The position numbers and the translations under genes are program-made. A model generated the notes under the pieces. That model was not told the origin of the DNA, made no database searches, and worked only from the letters and a program-made list of their open reading frames with translations. Below, one piece after another: positions 4,207 through 17,225 of a stretch of 38,268 nucleotides of DNA. The first letter of the stretch is position 1. The number at the start of each line of letters is the position of its first letter. Source of the DNA: a virus; the IMG/VR virus record IMGVR_UViG_3300028045_000039, positions 1 through 38,268 of that record. One strand, written 5' to 3'.

Positions 4207-4721
4207 ATTTGGTCATATGCTAATCCTGCACCTCCTCTAACTGAACTTTCTTGCTCCTGCTTCATATCACTAAAAGCTCCTTTATATGACTGCCTAATCT
4301 GTTCAAATTTTGCAGCAGCGTTTATCATAGAGTTCATATTTCCATCTCTACCATGTTCTATAGGTGTTACTTCCATATACTTAGCTAATCTATCTAACAT
4401 AGCTTTGATACCTACATAAGCTCTATATGTTGGTGTTTCATACATCTGTTTGCACATATCTAATGCATATCTAATCTTACCATCTTCAGGAGAATCTTCT
4501 AATTGTATTTCTTCAATTATTATATCTTCCTTTTCATGTTCTGGCAAATTAAAAAATGGATTCATGTCAGGATTAGGACAAGACATATAAAAAATGTATT
4601 GATAAATTTTTAAATAACTATCAGGATACTCTTCCATAATTTTATTTAAAAAAGGTAAAGCATAACAATGCTCTGTTGGTACCACTTTTGAGTTTTGTAC
4701 ATCAAATAATCTTATTAGCAT
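4203..4721 (-). CDS. Conserved-looking phage protein in packaging block, unknown
   Basis: This is a 172-residue, acidic, mainly helical protein with a proline/acid-rich middle (EHEKEDIIIEEIQLEDSPED) and a C-terminal segment rich in Q, G and A. No catalytic motif is visible. It lies two genes upstream of terL, so a structural or packaging role (even a small terminase or head-completion protein) is possible, but nothing in the sequence proves it. It is probably cotranscribed with the genes on both sides. Confidence 0.7.
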   Translation of the reverse strand: MLIRLFDVQNSKVVPTEHCYALPFLNKIMEEYPDSYLKIYQYIFYMSCPNPDMNPFFNLPEHEKEDIIIEEIQLEDSPEDGKIRYALDMCKQMYETPTYRAYVGIKAMLDRLAKYMEVTPIEHGRDGNMNSMINAAAKFEQIRQSYKGAFSDMKQEQESSVRGGAGLAYDQI

Positions 4722-4733
4722 AATTTTATATTT

Positions 4734-4988
4734 TTAGTTTAGATCAATATATCCTTTCACTGTAGCATAAGAATCAGCAACATAAATTGGAGTTACCAAA
4801 CCAGTTACATATACTTGTCTAGCATCAAGGATTGTTCCATCTAAATTGTATACTACCCCAACACCAATTATCTGCGATTGATCTATTGCTAATGGGTTAC
4901 CTGATCCTGGTGCAACATATAAAGGTTCTGATTGATCCACTGGAGCTTTTACTGCTAAATAAACTTGTGTTAATACTACTGATGCCAT
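4734..4988 (-). CDS. Small beta-rich protein, unknown (possible virion component)
   Basis: This 84-residue protein alternates short hydrophobic strands with G, P, S and N turns (YVAPGSGNPL, IIGVGVVYNLDGTI), with few lysines. That composition is typical of small capsid-decoration or fibre proteins. No recognised domain. Its start shares one base with the stop of the upstream nuclease gene, which indicates tight operon packing. The virion role is inferred from composition and location only. Confidence 0.65.
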   Translation of the reverse strand: MASVVLTQVYLAVKAPVDQSEPLYVAPGSGNPLAIDQSQIIGVGVVYNLDGTILDARQVYVTGLVTPIYVADSYATVKGYIDLN

Positions 4989-5800
4989 TATCTATTTTCT
5001 TTTAACCACATTATTAAAGAATTTACTTCATCTTTAAGGTATGGTAATTCATACATTTTAATTGTTTCTAATACAGGCTCTCCATTAACATGTTCATTAA
5101 CAGGATAACCATTTTTATCTTCCCCTATTTGTTTAAACTTTACATGTTGTATTACTAACTTGCCTATTTTAAGTTTAGGATTGTGTTTTTTAATAATATA
5201 CGCATAAATACTTAATTGTAGATTATAATGATTAAGATTACAATCATCTAAATTATTTACAGGCTTAAACATTTTGCTTGTTATACCTTCCCAATTAGTA
5301 AATCCTTTTTCTTTAATCTCTTTATTAGTTTTATAATCATATATGTTAATATAACCATTTACAATTTCAACTAAATCAGCCTGACCACAAATTCCAGCAG
5401 ACTTTAAATATACCAAGTGTTCTGGATATATACCATCTTCCACTTTTTGTTCAGGTGCTAATTTAATACCATCATCATTAACTAAAGGTTTAACAATTGG
5501 TATCTCTGTGCCATCACGTTGAATGGTGTCAAAATCTAACATGTCAGCTTCTCTCTGATTATGATAAAAATTACCTAACTTAATAGCTCTTTTAGTCTCA
5601 TTATCCCATGCAGTTAGTATTTCTTTTTCAGTCATACCATACCATTTAGATCTTTTATTTTTAGCTGACTTTTTAGCTTGACTCTTAGCATCAAACTTAG
5701 GTTTAAACATACCTATAAAAGAAGTTACACTTAACCACTCTATAGTATCTTTGTCTATACTTTCATAACTATGTCCTTCTTCTTTAAATATAATTGCCAT
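4988..5800 (-). CDS. PD-(D/E)XK (RecB/Cas4-like) nuclease
   Basis: This 270-residue protein carries the RecB-type nuclease signature: GICGQADLVEI (the conserved GxxD), then INIYDYKTNKEI (D-x-K) and, about 45 residues on, YNLQLSIYAYII, matching the QxxxY motif IV. The N-terminal third contains a basic KSQAKKSAKNKRSKWYG patch that could bind DNA. Such nucleases process DNA ends in recombination or packaging. Being in the virion block rather than the replication block, it may act during packaging or trimming, or be a head-associated nuclease. A second protein of this fold is at 30922-31920. Confidence 0.8.
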   Translation of the reverse strand: MAIIFKEEGHSYESIDKDTIEWLSVTSFIGMFKPKFDAKSQAKKSAKNKRSKWYGMTEKEILTAWDNETKRAIKLGNFYHNQREADMLDFDTIQRDGTEIPIVKPLVNDDGIKLAPEQKVEDGIYPEHLVYLKSAGICGQADLVEIVNGYINIYDYKTNKEIKEKGFTNWEGITSKMFKPVNNLDDCNLNHYNLQLSIYAYIIKKHNPKLKIGKLVIQHVKFKQIGEDKNGYPVNEHVNGEPVLETIKMYELPYLKDEVNSLIMWLKENR

Positions 5801-5804
5801 AATA

Positions 5805-6047
5805 CTATGCTATTGTTATATACCAATACGGTAAATCTGGATTTGATGGATCTATTGTCCATGTTATAGCCTCTTCTTTTTCAATGTCAGGTATCCATTC
5901 TGGTGGTAACACTGTTTGATTATCAAATGCATTAGCTTTTGCCTCAGCATTTAATAATATTACTGCTGAATCTTTTGTAATCAATTTATATTCTAATAAA
6001 TCTTTTACAATATCTGATACAACTATTGGTTTAAGTAAATCACTCAT
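5805..6047 (-). CDS. Hypothetical protein, 80 aa
   Basis: A short protein with an N-terminal helical half (SDIVKDLLEYKLITKDSAVILLNAEAKANA) followed by a tryptophan/proline-rich acidic tail (PPEWIPDIEKEEAITWTIDP). No recognised domain and no membrane segment. It sits in the minus-strand operon with four bases between its stop and the nuclease start. Function unknown. Confidence 0.65.
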   Translation of the reverse strand: MSDLLKPIVVSDIVKDLLEYKLITKDSAVILLNAEAKANAFDNQTVLPPEWIPDIEKEEAITWTIDPSNPDLPYWYITIA

Positions 6048-6053
6048 TGTTTA

Positions 6054-6371
6054 TTATTTAATCTGTTGGTTTATTTTATTCTCTTGTTCTTCTGTGGTAT
6101 ATGCATCCCAAAATCCTTTTGGACATTCAGAAGATAATGATCTAACTTTAAATGCTAAACTACAACCACAATCTGAACAACATGGTTGAGTTCCTGGAGC
6201 AATACAATCACTTCCTTTAGCATCAAATAAAGAACACTTTATACATATTTGAAATCTATCAGTTGCTACAGCTTCAATATGTTCTTTTTTAAATATCTTA
6301 TTTTTTATTCCTTCTGCAATCTTATCTGCATTTCTAAATGCATCTATATATTTTTTCCACGGCTTTGACAT
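6054..6371 (-). CDS. Cysteine-rich probable zinc-binding protein
   Basis: This 105-residue protein has a central cluster of nine cysteines: CIKC, then C eight residues later, then CCSDCGC and a final C in SSECPKGFWDA. The spacing suggests one or two zinc-binding knuckles. The N-terminus is basic (MSKPWKKYIDAFRNADK). It abuts the IHF-like gene with no intervening bases. It may bind nucleic acid or act as a structural zinc protein; I recognise no named family with certainty. Confidence 0.7.
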   Translation of the reverse strand: MSKPWKKYIDAFRNADKIAEGIKNKIFKKEHIEAVATDRFQICIKCSLFDAKGSDCIAPGTQPCCSDCGCSLAFKVRSLSSECPKGFWDAYTTEEQENKINQQIK

Positions 6372-6728
6372 TTACATTTTTGATTTAAATTCCTTTTTCT
6401 TTAAAATATCTTTCTCCATTTGTTCTAGAGCTTTTTCCATTTCTTCAATATTTAATAATATGTTTTCACTTTTAGCATAACCATTATATGTACGTTTAGC
6501 TATATTTCCTAACATACTCTTTTGCCTTTTTATTGCATTTTCTAACTTATTCTTTCTAAGATAAAATGTACCTAATCCTTCAATATAGATTCTAGGAAAT
6601 TCTAACTTAGAAAGTTTTTTTCTTACTTTACTATAGTAGAATGTTATAAAATCATCAACCAATTGAGAGTGTACTCCCACCTCTTCTGCTATGCCATCTT
6701 TAAATTCACTATGCTTCTTCGGATTCAT
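6372..6728 (-). CDS. IHF/HU-like DNA-binding protein
   Basis: This 118-residue basic protein resembles the HU/IHF fold. An N-terminal helical pair (GIAEEVGVHSQLVDDFITFYYSKVRKKL) is followed by the strand segment FPRIYIEGLGTFYLRKNKL, which mirrors the IHF LRNFGTFxLRxR strand. The usual long DNA-embracing arm appears shortened and the C-terminus is an added lysine-rich coiled-coil-like helix. IHF-like subunits near the terminase are a feature I associate with crAss-like phages. Likely roles are DNA bending in packaging or virion DNA organisation. It overlaps the next gene upstream by 20 bases. Confidence 0.75.
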   Translation of the reverse strand: MNPKKHSEFKDGIAEEVGVHSQLVDDFITFYYSKVRKKLSKLEFPRIYIEGLGTFYLRKNKLENAIKRQKSMLGNIAKRTYNGYAKSENILLNIEEMEKALEQMEKDILKKKEFKSKM

Positions 6729-7080
6729 TCCCTAGAATTTTATAATTCAGTAATACTAATCCTTTTACTTGCACGTTTATTTCTTTCTTTATACTAATTG
6801 TTTTTTTATTAGTACCACTTTTTACTAAAAGATTTTTTTTCTCAGCTTTTGAAATTGCATTTCTTGCTGACTGAGGGCTTTTAAATATTAGCTTCTCAGT
6901 CAAGATTCCGCAAAACTTAGAAATCTCTATTTTAGGGTTTTTAGAAAGTTCAGTTAAAAAATCTAAATCAGTATTGCTTATTAATGTTTTATTAAAGAAA
7001 CAATAAGTAAGTATCTGATACTTTATTGAATCATTAATATCCACCTTAAGTTTTAAATCTACATTAGTTACTATTGCCAT
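6709..7080 (-). CDS. Probable winged-helix protein next to IHF gene
   Basis: This 123-residue protein has a helix-turn-helix-like centre: LISNTDLDFLTELSKN, then SPQSARNAISKAEKKNLLVKSG, which reads as a recognition helix followed by a wing (SIKKEINVQVKGLVLLNY). This resembles winged-helix or replication/partition-type domains, but no family is assigned. Its 3' end overlaps the IHF-like gene by 20 bases, so the two are probably made together and may act together on phage DNA. Confidence 0.65.
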   Translation of the reverse strand: MAIVTNVDLKLKVDINDSIKYQILTYCFFNKTLISNTDLDFLTELSKNPKIEISKFCGILTEKLIFKSPQSARNAISKAEKKNLLVKSGTNKKTISIKKEINVQVKGLVLLNYKILGNESEEA

Positions 7081-7081
7081 A

Positions 7082-8005
7082 TTATAAACTCATTATCATA
7101 TCAACTAAATCAGGATGAGGATAACAATCAGATTTATCTCTCCTTACGTTGGTATGTGTTAATAATCCTTTTACTTTTCCAAAATAAGCATCATCATGAA
7201 AATCAAACCCTTTATGTGCACCATATTTATGTATATATTCTTGTAAGCCAACTCTGATGTCTATATCATCTCTTTCTCCTACATATCTTATCCATTTTTC
7301 AGTTTCTTTAATCTGAGCATCAGTATAGCTATGCCACCTGCTATGACCTCTAAAAGGTTTTTCTAATATGGTAACTTGACTTGGTGTACAACGAGACCTT
7401 ACATAAGTCTTATCATCATCCGTTAAATATCCCATGTTACATATCTCTAAACCTACAGAACTTCTATTCATTCTGCCAGAACCAGTTCTACCTAAGTGCC
7501 ATCCTTGACACTTTTCTGGAAATGCTTGAATCATAATTCCATCATTATCTACATTTCCATTTCTGTGGTCTATACCACCTAAAACAAACTCTGTTGCTAC
7601 TCTACCTCTGCTATCTCTACCCCAATGATCAACTGTTCTGTAAGGATTTGCATGACCAGCAGTATGATGTAAAAAAATATAATTGTTTTCTACAGGTCCT
7701 TCTACATATTGACCTTTAGGTAAAAAATGTCTGTGAATTACTTGATCAAATGTAGTCTCAAAATACTCTGCAGAAATGTCTGTATCTTCATCTATTTCCT
7801 CTGTAACTGTAATTTCTTTATTAAATAACAAAGTCCACATTGGAGAATCAACAATTCCTGTAATAGGAAAATTATTGCTTAGTTGAAATCTTATTACAGC
7901 CTTTTCTGTTATAGGCCCAAAATCTCCATCAGATGTAATGTTTAATGCTCTTTGAAGAGTTTGTACATCAGATCCTTTATCTCCTCTTTTTAGTATCCGC
8001 ATCAT
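7082..8005 (-). CDS. Endolysin: N-acetylmuramoyl-L-alanine amidase with peptidoglycan-binding domain
   Basis: The 307-residue protein starts with a peptidoglycan-binding type 1 repeat (about 4-60: LKRGDKGSDVQTLQRALN, DGDFGPITEKAVIRFQ). After an acidic linker comes an Amidase_2-type zinc amidase. YIFLHHTAGH gives the first zinc histidine, SVGLEICNMG the core strand, LLTHTNVRRDKSDCYPHPDL the later histidine and cysteine ligands. It would cleave the amide bond between N-acetylmuramic acid and L-alanine to lyse the host. No signal peptide is seen, so a holin or other route would be needed; membrane peptides nearby are candidates. The start has two consecutive Met codons. Confidence 0.9.
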   Translation of the reverse strand: MMRILKRGDKGSDVQTLQRALNITSDGDFGPITEKAVIRFQLSNNFPITGIVDSPMWTLLFNKEITVTEEIDEDTDISAEYFETTFDQVIHRHFLPKGQYVEGPVENNYIFLHHTAGHANPYRTVDHWGRDSRGRVATEFVLGGIDHRNGNVDNDGIMIQAFPEKCQGWHLGRTGSGRMNRSSVGLEICNMGYLTDDDKTYVRSRCTPSQVTILEKPFRGHSRWHSYTDAQIKETEKWIRYVGERDDIDIRVGLQEYIHKYGAHKGFDFHDDAYFGKVKGLLTHTNVRRDKSDCYPHPDLVDMIMSL

Positions 8006-14836: not shown

Positions 14837-14858
14837 TTAAACATACTTAGCAAATAGA

Positions 14859-15125
14859 ATGATAATTCAGTTACCTAATGGACGTATAGTTGAATGCTCA
14901 GTTGAGCAATACCTATCTCTTTCTGATGAAGAGATAAAAGACCTCAACGGTCTTAGCGCAGCTTATACTAAAGAAGTGGGTAATCCTTTCTACAACACTT
15001 ATTTCAATTCAAACAAGATAGACCAAGATTCTGAAGATTATCTTCAGGAAAGAGAACCGGCTTTAGATGAAATTGAAGAGATTGAAAAAAGAATTGACCC
15101 TGATTTTCACAGTGATGATGTCTAA
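14859..15125 (+). CDS. Conserved-looking acidic small protein, 88 aa
   Basis: The N-terminus MIIQLPNGRIVECSVEQYLS followed by LSDEEIKDLNGL resembles a small protein I associate with crAss-like phages, though I cannot name it. The C-terminal third is strongly acidic (ALDEIEEIEKRIDPDFHSDD). No enzymatic motif. It precedes the 189-residue possible ssDNA-binding candidate and shares its terminator. Confidence 0.65.
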   Translation: MIIQLPNGRIVECSVEQYLSLSDEEIKDLNGLSAAYTKEVGNPFYNTYFNSNKIDQDSEDYLQEREPALDEIEEIEKRIDPDFHSDDV

Positions 15126-15168
15126 AAGATAGACACATCAATCATTTTATTATTTAACAACAAAAATT

Positions 15169-15738
15169 ATGCAAAGTAAAGTAAACATCGTTGCTGATGA
15201 CATGGGAAATGTTATCCGCCAATCAAGCACAAGTTCAGAGTATGGATTTGTAAGACTACAACAAGACAGAGTTACATTTGGTAACAATGGTTGGGTTAAA
15301 AAATCAAACATTAGTACACTATTACATGGTAAGTTAGAAGATCTTCAGTCATTAGGACTAGATACTATGGCAACAATACCAGGTAGAATTGTAATTAAAG
15401 AACAGTTAACACCGTTCAATCAAAACAATCCAGATCGTGATTTAAAGTATGCAGGTGATACAGGTATCATTTGTTGTGTTGATGGAGAACCTATTTATAG
15501 GAAAACATTCTATGTTGCTGATGCAGCATCACAGGATGTCTTAGTAGCTCACAATAATAGTGATGCTATTAAAGAAGCCAATGCTTCTGATTTCAACGCT
15601 GCAAAGTCTACAGTAGCTATGCCAGAAGATCCAGCTAAAGCATTTGGATTTGACGCAAGTGATGAGGAAGTAACAGAAGAACCTGTTAATGAAATAGTTG
15701 AAGAGGTTTCTGAAGAAGTAGAAACTTTTGAACTGTAA
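15169..15738 (+). CDS. Protein with acidic C-terminal tail, possible ssDNA-binding type
   Basis: This 189-residue protein has a beta-rich body (EYGFVRLQQDRVTFGNNGWV, TIPGRIVIKEQLTPFNQNNP, YAGDTGIICCVDGEPIYRKT). It then has a disordered linker and a long acidic tail (DASDEEVTEEPVNEIVEEVS, then EEVETFEL). A compact beta domain with an acidic tail is the hallmark of single-stranded DNA-binding proteins, but no OB-fold motif is certain. A better SSB candidate lies at 23893. It is followed by a terminator. Confidence 0.6.
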   Translation: MQSKVNIVADDMGNVIRQSSTSSEYGFVRLQQDRVTFGNNGWVKKSNISTLLHGKLEDLQSLGLDTMATIPGRIVIKEQLTPFNQNNPDRDLKYAGDTGIICCVDGEPIYRKTFYVADAASQDVLVAHNNSDAIKEANASDFNAAKSTVAMPEDPAKAFGFDASDEEVTEEPVNEIVEEVSEEVETFEL

Positions 15739-15852: not shown

Positions 15853-16395
15853 ATGCTATCTCAGGAACAAATAACACAAATAAAACAAAATGAAAGTAAA
15901 GCTTTATTATCACAGCTTTTGCAACGTTACCACTACTATGGATTACTGGAAGAATATCAGTTACATCCAACCTCAATAATTAACAACTTCACATACTCAT
16001 CGCTAAACTCTTATCAGCATTTCTTATTTAAAAGAGTGTTACATGGGTTAAACGTTTATGATAAAGCTGAAGTTGAAAAGTTGCACTGGGATAAGAAGAG
16101 AAGAATATCTAAAGTCTGGAGAAGAGGTCAAAGAGAAATCAATGCTTGGAAGCAGATGATCTGTAATAAGAAAGTTAACAACTATTTCAAAAGGACATTC
16201 AAAGGTCCTGCTGTAGAGTTTATGCTTAGTATACCAGTTGATGAGTATCTAGAGGATTACAATAATACTTTAACCTTTAAAGATTTAAACGTTAATTATG
16301 AAGATGTAATCTTACTATTCATGTCAAAGGGTTTATTACCTAAAAACTTTCTTACTCTTAAGCCTAATGATAATCAAAAACAACTTAAGGCGTGA
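15853..16395 (+). CDS. Hypothetical protein, 180 aa, basic middle
   Basis: I use the ATG at 15853 (MLSQEQITQIKQNESKALLS). An upstream in-frame GTG would start inside the terminator hairpin. The protein is helical with a basic central block (HWDKKRRISKVWRRGQREIN) and ends in a lysine-rich tail. No catalytic motif is seen. It overlaps the HNH-type gene as GTGA, so the two are coupled and perhaps both act on DNA. Confidence 0.65.
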   Translation: MLSQEQITQIKQNESKALLSQLLQRYHYYGLLEEYQLHPTSIINNFTYSSLNSYQHFLFKRVLHGLNVYDKAEVEKLHWDKKRRISKVWRRGQREINAWKQMICNKKVNNYFKRTFKGPAVEFMLSIPVDEYLEDYNNTLTFKDLNVNYEDVILLFMSKGLLPKNFLTLKPNDNQKQLKA

Positions 16396-16796
16396 TTAAA
16401 CAGAAAAAGAAGCTATGCAGTAATTGCAATACTGACCAGTTCATTTGGAAAAATGATAAGGGTAATAGGTATTGCAAGAATTGCTGGTATAGAAGCAAAA
16501 GTTCAGATGCTAAACCATTAAAGAAAGCACCTATCAATCAAAAGTCAAAGAAAATGCAGGTCATTGATCAAGCTTACACTAAACTTAGACGTAAGTTTAT
16601 GGAGGGACATCCAATGTGCCAAGCAGCTTTGCCTTGTTGTACTGGTGGTTCAACAGATGTTCATCACAAAAAAGGACGTGGTAAATATCACTTAGTGGTT
16701 AGCACTTGGCTTTCAGTCTGTAGAGCTTGTCACATGTACATAGAAGAGCATCCTAAAGAAGCAATTGAGCTTGGATATTCAGAAAAACGTGACTAA
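16392..16796 (+). CDS. HNH-type nuclease with N-terminal zinc ribbon
   Basis: The start is a GTG overlapping the previous stop as GTGA. Of 134 residues, the first 35 form a zinc ribbon (CSNCN and CKNCW). The second half holds an HNH-like core: CQAALPCCTGGSTDVHHKKG with the DVHH catalytic pair, then VCRACHMYIEEHP. The layout resembles NinG/Rap-type recombination endonucleases and small phage HNH enzymes. It lies at the end of the early operon, directly before the tRNA cluster, where homing-type HNH enzymes are also common, but no intron is seen around it. Confidence 0.75.
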   Translation: MIKQKKKLCSNCNTDQFIWKNDKGNRYCKNCWYRSKSSDAKPLKKAPINQKSKKMQVIDQAYTKLRRKFMEGHPMCQAALPCCTGGSTDVHHKKGRGKYHLVVSTWLSVCRACHMYIEEHPKEAIELGYSEKRD

Positions 16797-16887: not shown

Positions 16888-16976
16888 GGCCGGATGATGG
16901 AATTGGTAGACATGAAGGACTTAAAATCCTTTGGGCAGTAATGTCCGTGTGGGTTCAAGTCCCACTCCGGTTACCA
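16888..16976 (+). tRNA. tRNA-Leu (anticodon TAA)
   Basis: Class II tRNA with a long variable arm. Acceptor GGCCGGA pairs with TCCGGTT (two G-T pairs), anticodon stem AAGGA/TCCTT encloses CTTAAAA, T-stem GTGGG/CCCAC. ACCA at the 3' end is encoded, unlike the flanking tRNAs. It reads UUA. Confidence 0.92.
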
Positions 16977-16984
16977 GTAGTACT

Positions 16985-17104
16985 AAAGAGAGGTGGTGAA
17001 GCTGTAATAGATGATCGTGCTAAGATGACAAAAAAGGGTTTGGAGTAGTCACAGCATAAACAAATCATCTATCAGAAACCCTGAAAGACCCGGAACCTCT
17101 CTTT
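16985..17104 (+). ncRNA. Pseudoknot-capable structured RNA between tRNA genes
   Basis: Perfect outer stem P1: AAAGAGAGGT (16985-16994) with 17095-17104. Perfect P2: ATAGATGAT (17007-17015) with 17064-17072. P3: GTGCT (17017-17021) with AGCAT (17053-17057). P4: TGAC (17026-17029) with GTCA (17048-17051). The apical loop GGGTTT (17036-17041) pairs with AAACCC (17076-17081) outside P2, forming a pseudoknot. The 3' arm runs into five T (17102-17106). It is not a tRNA or a recognised group I intron. The class is unknown to me; the phage-associated manA and wcaG RNA motifs should be tested. Confidence 0.7.
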
Positions 17105-17108
17105 TTAT

Positions 17109-17182
17109 GGACTCTTAGCTCAGTTGGTCAGAGCAATTCACTCATAATGAAGAGGTCACAGGTTCAAGTCCTGTAGGGTCCA
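17109..17182 (+). tRNA. tRNA-Met (anticodon CAT)
   Basis: The 74-base cloverleaf has acceptor GGACTCT with AGGGTCC, D-arm AGCTCAGTTGGTCAGAGCA, anticodon loop CTCATAA, T-loop GGTTCAAGTCC and discriminator A. CCA is not encoded (ACCC follows). It is not initiator-like. Reading as elongator Met is likeliest, but a lysidine-modified Ile(CAU) cannot be excluded. Confidence 0.9.
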
Positions 17183-17225
17183 CCCTGATGTTTAATAATA
17201 CATTGTCAAGAAATTTTAAAACCAA

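Follow-up and report, generated by a model that had tools for sequence, protein, structure and literature searches.

Covariation supports a pseudoknotted RNA family of tailed phages that occurs in tRNA clusters, in tmRNAs and behind stop codons

Stable RNAs of unexplained role have long been known from the tRNA clusters of phages. Phage T4 carries RNA C and RNA D (species 1 and 2), and the T5 annotation (L283, positions 4285–7950 and 14849–15567) lists eight stable or tRNA-like RNAs in the tRNA cluster, namely RNA I, III, IV, 1, 2, 2H, 3, and X. RNA3 is annotated as a putative tRNA-like RNA and the other T4 and T5 ones as stable RNAs. GOLLD and ROOL are non-coding phage RNAs near tRNA islands (PMC12286853), and theta ribozymes, which are HDV-like, are phage RNAs that directly adjoin tRNAs (PMC10879173). 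Natural circular permutants exist for the hammerhead and twister ribozymes (PMC10085705, 2023). The setting of the RNA element described here, that of an unexplained RNA in a phage tRNA cluster, is already known from T4, T5, GOLLD, and ROOL; the element is a different RNA from all of these.

We analyzed a 38,268-nt stretch of viral DNA (the window), which comprises positions 1 to 38,268 of IMG/VR record IMGVR_UViG_3300028045_000039. The element lies between two tRNA genes (Table 1). The first-pass annotation, made from the letters alone, had drawn four nested stems of 10, 9, 5, and 4 bp and a 6-bp GGGTTT/AAACCC pseudoknot at this place, and direct reading of the sequence reproduced the element and all of these pairings base for base. 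A conserved 3-bp helix (CTG/CAG) had been overlooked. Directly before the tRNA cluster, the window encodes a small protein (16392–16796) that contains paired cysteines and an HNH-like motif, DVHHKKGR.

Table 1 Features of the RNA element and its surroundings in the window.
Feature	Position	Strand	Basis
tRNA-Leu (TAA), upstream neighbour	16888..16976	+	ARAGORN
GTAGTACT, left over from the 3' acceptor strand of a tRNA-Leu of another phage; putative recombination scar	16977..16984	+	same bases working in the L098 tRNA-Leu
Whole RNA element, type a, closed by P1	16985..17104	+	covariance model match 16987–17102, 104.2 bits; covariation
P1 5' strand AAAGAGAGGT	16985..16994	+	pairs with 17095–17104, 10 bp, perfect
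Conserved junction GGTGAAG (family: AGUGAAG or AGUAACG)	16995..17001	+	near-invariant alignment columns
Short helix CTG, partner CAG 17073–17075	17002..17004	+	covaries as CTG/CAG, CTC/GAG, CAG/CTG
P2 5' strand ATAGATGAT	17007..17015	+	9 bp, perfect, with 17064–17072
Extra stem 5' strand GTGCT, pairs with 17053–17057, 5 bp	17017..17021	+	direct reading only, no covariation data
P3 5' strand TGAC, pairs with 17048–17051, 4 bp	17026..17029	+	helix 3: double changes in 5/5 pairs
A-rich conserved part of apical loop (family: GAAAAA or GAAUAA)	17030..17035	+	alignment
Pseudoknot 5' strand GGGTTT	17036..17041	+	97.1% of cells paired in type a alignment; covaries in both permutants
Invariant apical-loop AGTA	17044..17047	+	invariant alignment columns
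P3 3' strand GTCA	17048..17051	+	covariation
Extra stem 3' strand AGCAT	17053..17057	+	direct reading
P2 3' strand ATCATCTAT	17064..17072	+	covariation
CAG, 3' strand of short helix	17073..17075	+	covariation
Pseudoknot 3' strand AAACCC	17076..17081	+	covariation
Conserved 3' junction TGAAAGACCCGGA (family: YGAAAGACCCGAA or YGAAACACCCAAA)	17082..17094	+	GAAA and ACCC invariant in alignment
P1 3' strand ACCTCTCTTT	17095..17104	+	covariation; double changes in 8/8 modelled P1 pairs
tRNA-Met (CAT), downstream neighbour	17108..17185	+	ARAGORN

The search for relatives started from a weak blastn match (E 0.04) in Cellulophaga phage phi14:2, which lies inside a tmRNA gene (Rfam tmRNA, 46.0 bits with a gathering score of 47, E 5e-17). 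A first search pattern, AAAAAGGN{3,12}AGTAGN{8,38}GAAANACCCG, was made from the letters common to the window and phi14:2 and matched 97 stretches of viral contigs. Nearly all of them were true relatives, and a few (e.g., L106, L115, L129, and L164) resembled chance matches in protein-coding sequence; among pattern matches in genome contigs, most looked like such chance matches. Blastn with the copy from Klebsiella phage RaK2 led to proteobacterial phages, including Mosigvirus mogra, the T5-like phages Stubb and My1, Vequintavirinae, Rhizobium phage RHEph12, and the jumbo phage Hallingskeid, and further patterns added more members. Together, the pattern and covariance-model searches yielded ~100 distinct relatives, from viral metagenome contigs and from T4-like, T5-like, Vequintavirinae, jumbo, Rhizobium, and Cellulophaga phages. 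Exactly one copy was present in 27 of the 28 whole records searched. The remaining record (G010) had no match at E 0.001, yet its locus L099 has a weak one; two places matched at L141. No match was found in E. coli genomes, plasmids gave only one short match over a tRNA end, and the single positive among 299 Flavobacteriaceae genomes was itself the genome used as starting point.

The element occurs as two circular permutants. In type a, the order is P1 5' strand, junction, CUG, P2 5' strand, P3 hairpin, P2 3' strand, CAG, pseudoknot strand, junction, and P1 3' strand. Type b has the same parts but begins at the P3 hairpin, with P1 as an inner hairpin and P2 open. This relation was established by sequence reading and conserved anchors, without a single joint alignment. 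The window element has all features of the family defined by the type a covariance model R1 (P1, CUG:CAG helix, P2, P3, pseudoknot, and conserved junctions); its bit score has to be read with the window sequence being among the model's own 35 sources, and the GAAA.ACC motif of the 3' junction was also a criterion for choosing family members. A GC-rich type b element with the same flanks was seen in an Afipia massiliensis genome (L220) and in a viral contig (L123), and is probably a prophage copy.

In an alignment of 35 type a relatives, window copy included, compensatory double changes were found in 25 of the 29 pairs, and 90.7% of cells were pairing. The covariation score was 0.551; sliding the partner strand gave no more than 0.141 and shuffling no more than 0.190, and none of 500 shuffles reached the observed values. 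The covariation included the pseudoknot and the short helix (double changes in 9 of the 10 pairs of helix 2, which is P2 plus the short helix). The pseudoknot was also tested across both permutants with members that were chosen by anchors, without using the pairing. The anchor search gave 101 distinct stretches (79 type a and 22 type b, a few chance matches among them), and 0 of 2000 shuffles were as good as the observed co-variation. Both strands changed together, giving GGGTTT/AAACCC, AGGTTA/TAACCT, AGGATT/AATCCT, GGTATT/AATACC, GGCGTT/AACGCC, AGCATT/AATGCT, AGGTCA/TGACCT, and GGGATT/AATCCC. The core was very conserved whereas the helices drifted, and the junction bases were kept across phages with very different hosts.

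That the element is a chance fold, or a repeat with no function as RNA, would be in line with the modest folding energy of the window copy, which by itself is unimpressive (z −1.4). However, this explanation is refuted by the compensatory changes, the copy number, and the pseudoknot covariation, and we give it almost no credence. Judged from comparison of sequences rather than from energy, the window element is a real structured RNA and chance is excluded. The same comparison establishes a fold in which P1 is followed by an internal loop bearing two conserved strands, then by the short CUG:CAG helix, P2, and P3, and in which the apical loop pairs back to the internal loop through a 6-bp pseudoknot.

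Known RNA families did not account for the element. When the window element was compared by cmscan with all 4227 Rfam families at E up to 10, the only hits were snR75 and ST7-OT4_3, both at chance level, and the manA RNA and wcaG RNA models, which the first-pass annotation had offered as comparators, were left unmatched. At gathering score, the whole window contained tRNAs only, and nothing was found over the element in 16 loci (one counted twice). Two representatives of the family had no match beyond chance in Rfam 15 at E up to 10. HDV-like models did not match over the element (E up to 10 for the two representatives; gathering score for loci), nor did hammerhead, twister, and other self-cleaving ribozymes (E up to 10; 11 loci at gathering score) or the GOLLD and ROOL models. 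Neither ARAGORN nor Rfam called a tmRNA over the window element. The earlier description of an unrecognised RNA amid tRNA genes therefore stands, and such a setting is typical of the family. T4 RNA C and RNA D were rejected as homologues, because model R1 found nothing in the tRNA cluster of T4 (L232). The T5 stable RNAs were also rejected; none of the eight matched R1, whose best hit in the T5 cluster with filters off (12 bits, E 0.39) lay outside every annotated RNA. We considered whether the motif GAAAGACCC resembles the 23S rRNA peptidyl transferase loop and dropped the idea, as several proteobacterial members have GAAACACCC. No description of the RNA was found in the literature, as far as open-licence papers go and without the supplementary data of the HRIMA and HMP2 motif studies, and an earlier sighting without a name is possible. 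Taken together, this is probably a widespread phage RNA without known job that has been overlooked until now.

The window copy is a horizontal gain, because no copy was found among 80 related-phage loci with the neighbouring helicase gene and because a foreign tRNA-Leu remnant precedes the element. Related loci with the same tRNA trio have 0–65 nt between tRNA-Leu and tRNA-Met. In the window, GTAGTACT fills the gap from the end of the complete tRNA-Leu to the element; in L098 these bases (CAGTAGT plus AC) form the working acceptor strand of that phage's own tRNA-Leu, which directly precedes its element. The window element therefore probably arrived with a piece of a donor tRNA. The first-pass annotation had held that related phages with this position otherwise filled would refute the RNA. 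Such phages exist, none of them with the RNA, but the conclusion drawn from them does not hold, because the copy was gained horizontally and the covariation stems from other phages. In one related phage, the 65-nt spacer at the element's place (L004, 3705–3769) has inverted repeats TATACCC/GGGTATA.

To describe the genomic setting, we surveyed 85 type a copies. A same-strand tRNA was found ≤100 nt away from 54 of them, no tRNA was found within 100 nt of the other 31 (some loci incomplete), and an opposite-strand tRNA within 3 kb was never found (0/85). The downstream tRNA was within 25 nt in 41 copies, usually with a gap of 5–7 nt, and the upstream tRNA was within 25 nt in 36 copies, usually with a gap of 2–4 nt. 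The neighbouring tRNAs belonged to about ten isotypes on each side, and the stretches around the element contained up to 24 tRNAs. On the reverse strand of L134, a tRNA-Leu upstream of the element was missed by ARAGORN and is seemingly split by a group I intron-like stretch (no model run).

Most type b copies were located directly 3' of the stop codon of a gene or of a phage-tmRNA tag, and some had a terminator-like stem behind them. The tag setting was found in four tmRNAs at five loci, of which L002 (phi14:2) and L088/L146 were identified by ARAGORN and L276 and L277 by eye; here the element is an inner part of the tmRNA. Within the L277 tmRNA (380–1010), positions 785–1010 matched an Rfam group I intron, starting near the tmRNA's 3' T-arm region. 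A strict rule placing type b invariably behind a stop codon does not hold: L170 and L273 have type b copies in tRNA clusters, and in Cellulophaga phage phi19:3 the element (L234, 2001–2126) overlaps an HNH endonuclease frame at the frame's 3' end, with the stop codon of the frame inside the pseudoknot strand. Identity of phi19:3 to phi10:1, which belongs to another phage family, was 98.4% over the element and its terminator-like tail.

The positions of type b behind stop codons or tmRNA tags could indicate a cis role. A cis-acting element of the carrier transcript, serving as an exonuclease block or as a 3'-end or tRNA-maturation signal, would suit these copies and the terminator-like stems, and P1 ends nearly flush with the flanking tRNAs. 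We nevertheless consider it rather improbable, as one copy per genome is odd for a general stabiliser and a cis signal need not preserve many unpaired core bases over unrelated phages and settings. An aptamer or riboswitch-like sensor within non-coding transcripts is suggested by the compact pseudoknot and the conserved unpaired junctions, which resemble a binding pocket, but no constant downstream gene was seen and the element is mostly before tRNAs or after stop codons, which makes this reading very unlikely.

The main rival to a trans-acting RNA is a self-cleaving ribozyme, in which the conserved internal loop and the pseudoknot would form an active site cutting the carrier tRNA, tmRNA, or mRNA transcript. 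A 2023 paper lists natural circular permutants only for hammerhead and twister ribozymes, 5S rRNA, and group II introns (PMC10085705), HDV-like theta ribozymes have already been found beside phage tRNAs (PMC10879173), and a strongly conserved core with drifting helices is what a ribozyme might show. However, each genome has a single copy with varied tRNA neighbours, despite the many tRNAs around it, and no Rfam ribozyme model matches. A cut in the core would also leave a half-element on each adjoining tRNA and break the carrier tmRNAs. A new ribozyme class is thus possible but somewhat unlikely, and we remain just as hesitant to propose a new natural class of catalytic phage RNA with two circular permutants in tRNA arrays, tmRNAs, and mRNA 3' ends.

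We favour, with about an even chance of being right, a new family of small (about 85–130 nt) structured RNAs of tailed phages that act in trans after release by tRNA processing, with the mechanism being inferred. The single copy per genome argues for a trans-acting RNA and not for a processing element needed at each tRNA. Two permutants in such diverse carrier transcripts (tRNA arrays, tmRNA, and mRNA 3' ends) indicate that the core is an independent domain, and an independent trans RNA is further suggested by the tRNA-like packing and by unpaired junctions conserved across phages of Bacteroidota and Proteobacteria. The annotated stable RNAs of unknown function in the T4 and T5 tRNA clusters, at comparable positions, also speak for it. 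In the putative mechanism, the element would be transcribed together with the tRNA operon, and the 5' cut of the next tRNA by RNase P and 3'-end nucleases behind the previous tRNA would free it as a stable RNA closed by P1. The freed RNA, from its single copy, may then act in trans on a target that is nearly the same in Bacteroidota and Proteobacteria; a component of the host's machinery for translation or RNA is the most likely candidate. Against this trans-acting RNA, the transcript, its ends, and its target are all without measurement, and 31 of the 85 type a copies have no tRNA within 100 nt.

This element gives one of the unexplained RNAs of phage tRNA clusters an identity as a shared family with a precise fold. 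The family is spread across phage families and host phyla, is mobile as a cassette, and is also present inside phage tmRNAs. If action in trans on a conserved host part proves true, the RNA marks a target common to many phages. Since the recorded host of Escherichia phage mogra is E. coli K-12 MG1655, both function and self-cleavage are open to experiment.

Compared to described systems, the element resembles the phage-associated RNAs manA and wcaG in having a pseudoknot and matches neither. It lacks the CUGANGA core of the hammerhead, and its topology differs from that of theta ribozymes, which have a minimal HDV-like fold with the cleavage site at the tRNA 3' end and occur mostly in gut phages. 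L109 and L276 have GOLLD (at 4451–4861 and 6195–6708, respectively) close to the element within one tRNA array, but GOLLD and ROOL are hundreds of nucleotides long and have another structure. The stable RNAs of T4 and T5 are not homologous to the element by covariance model, but they are like it in their position in the tRNA cluster, in their mostly similar size, and in their unknown function.
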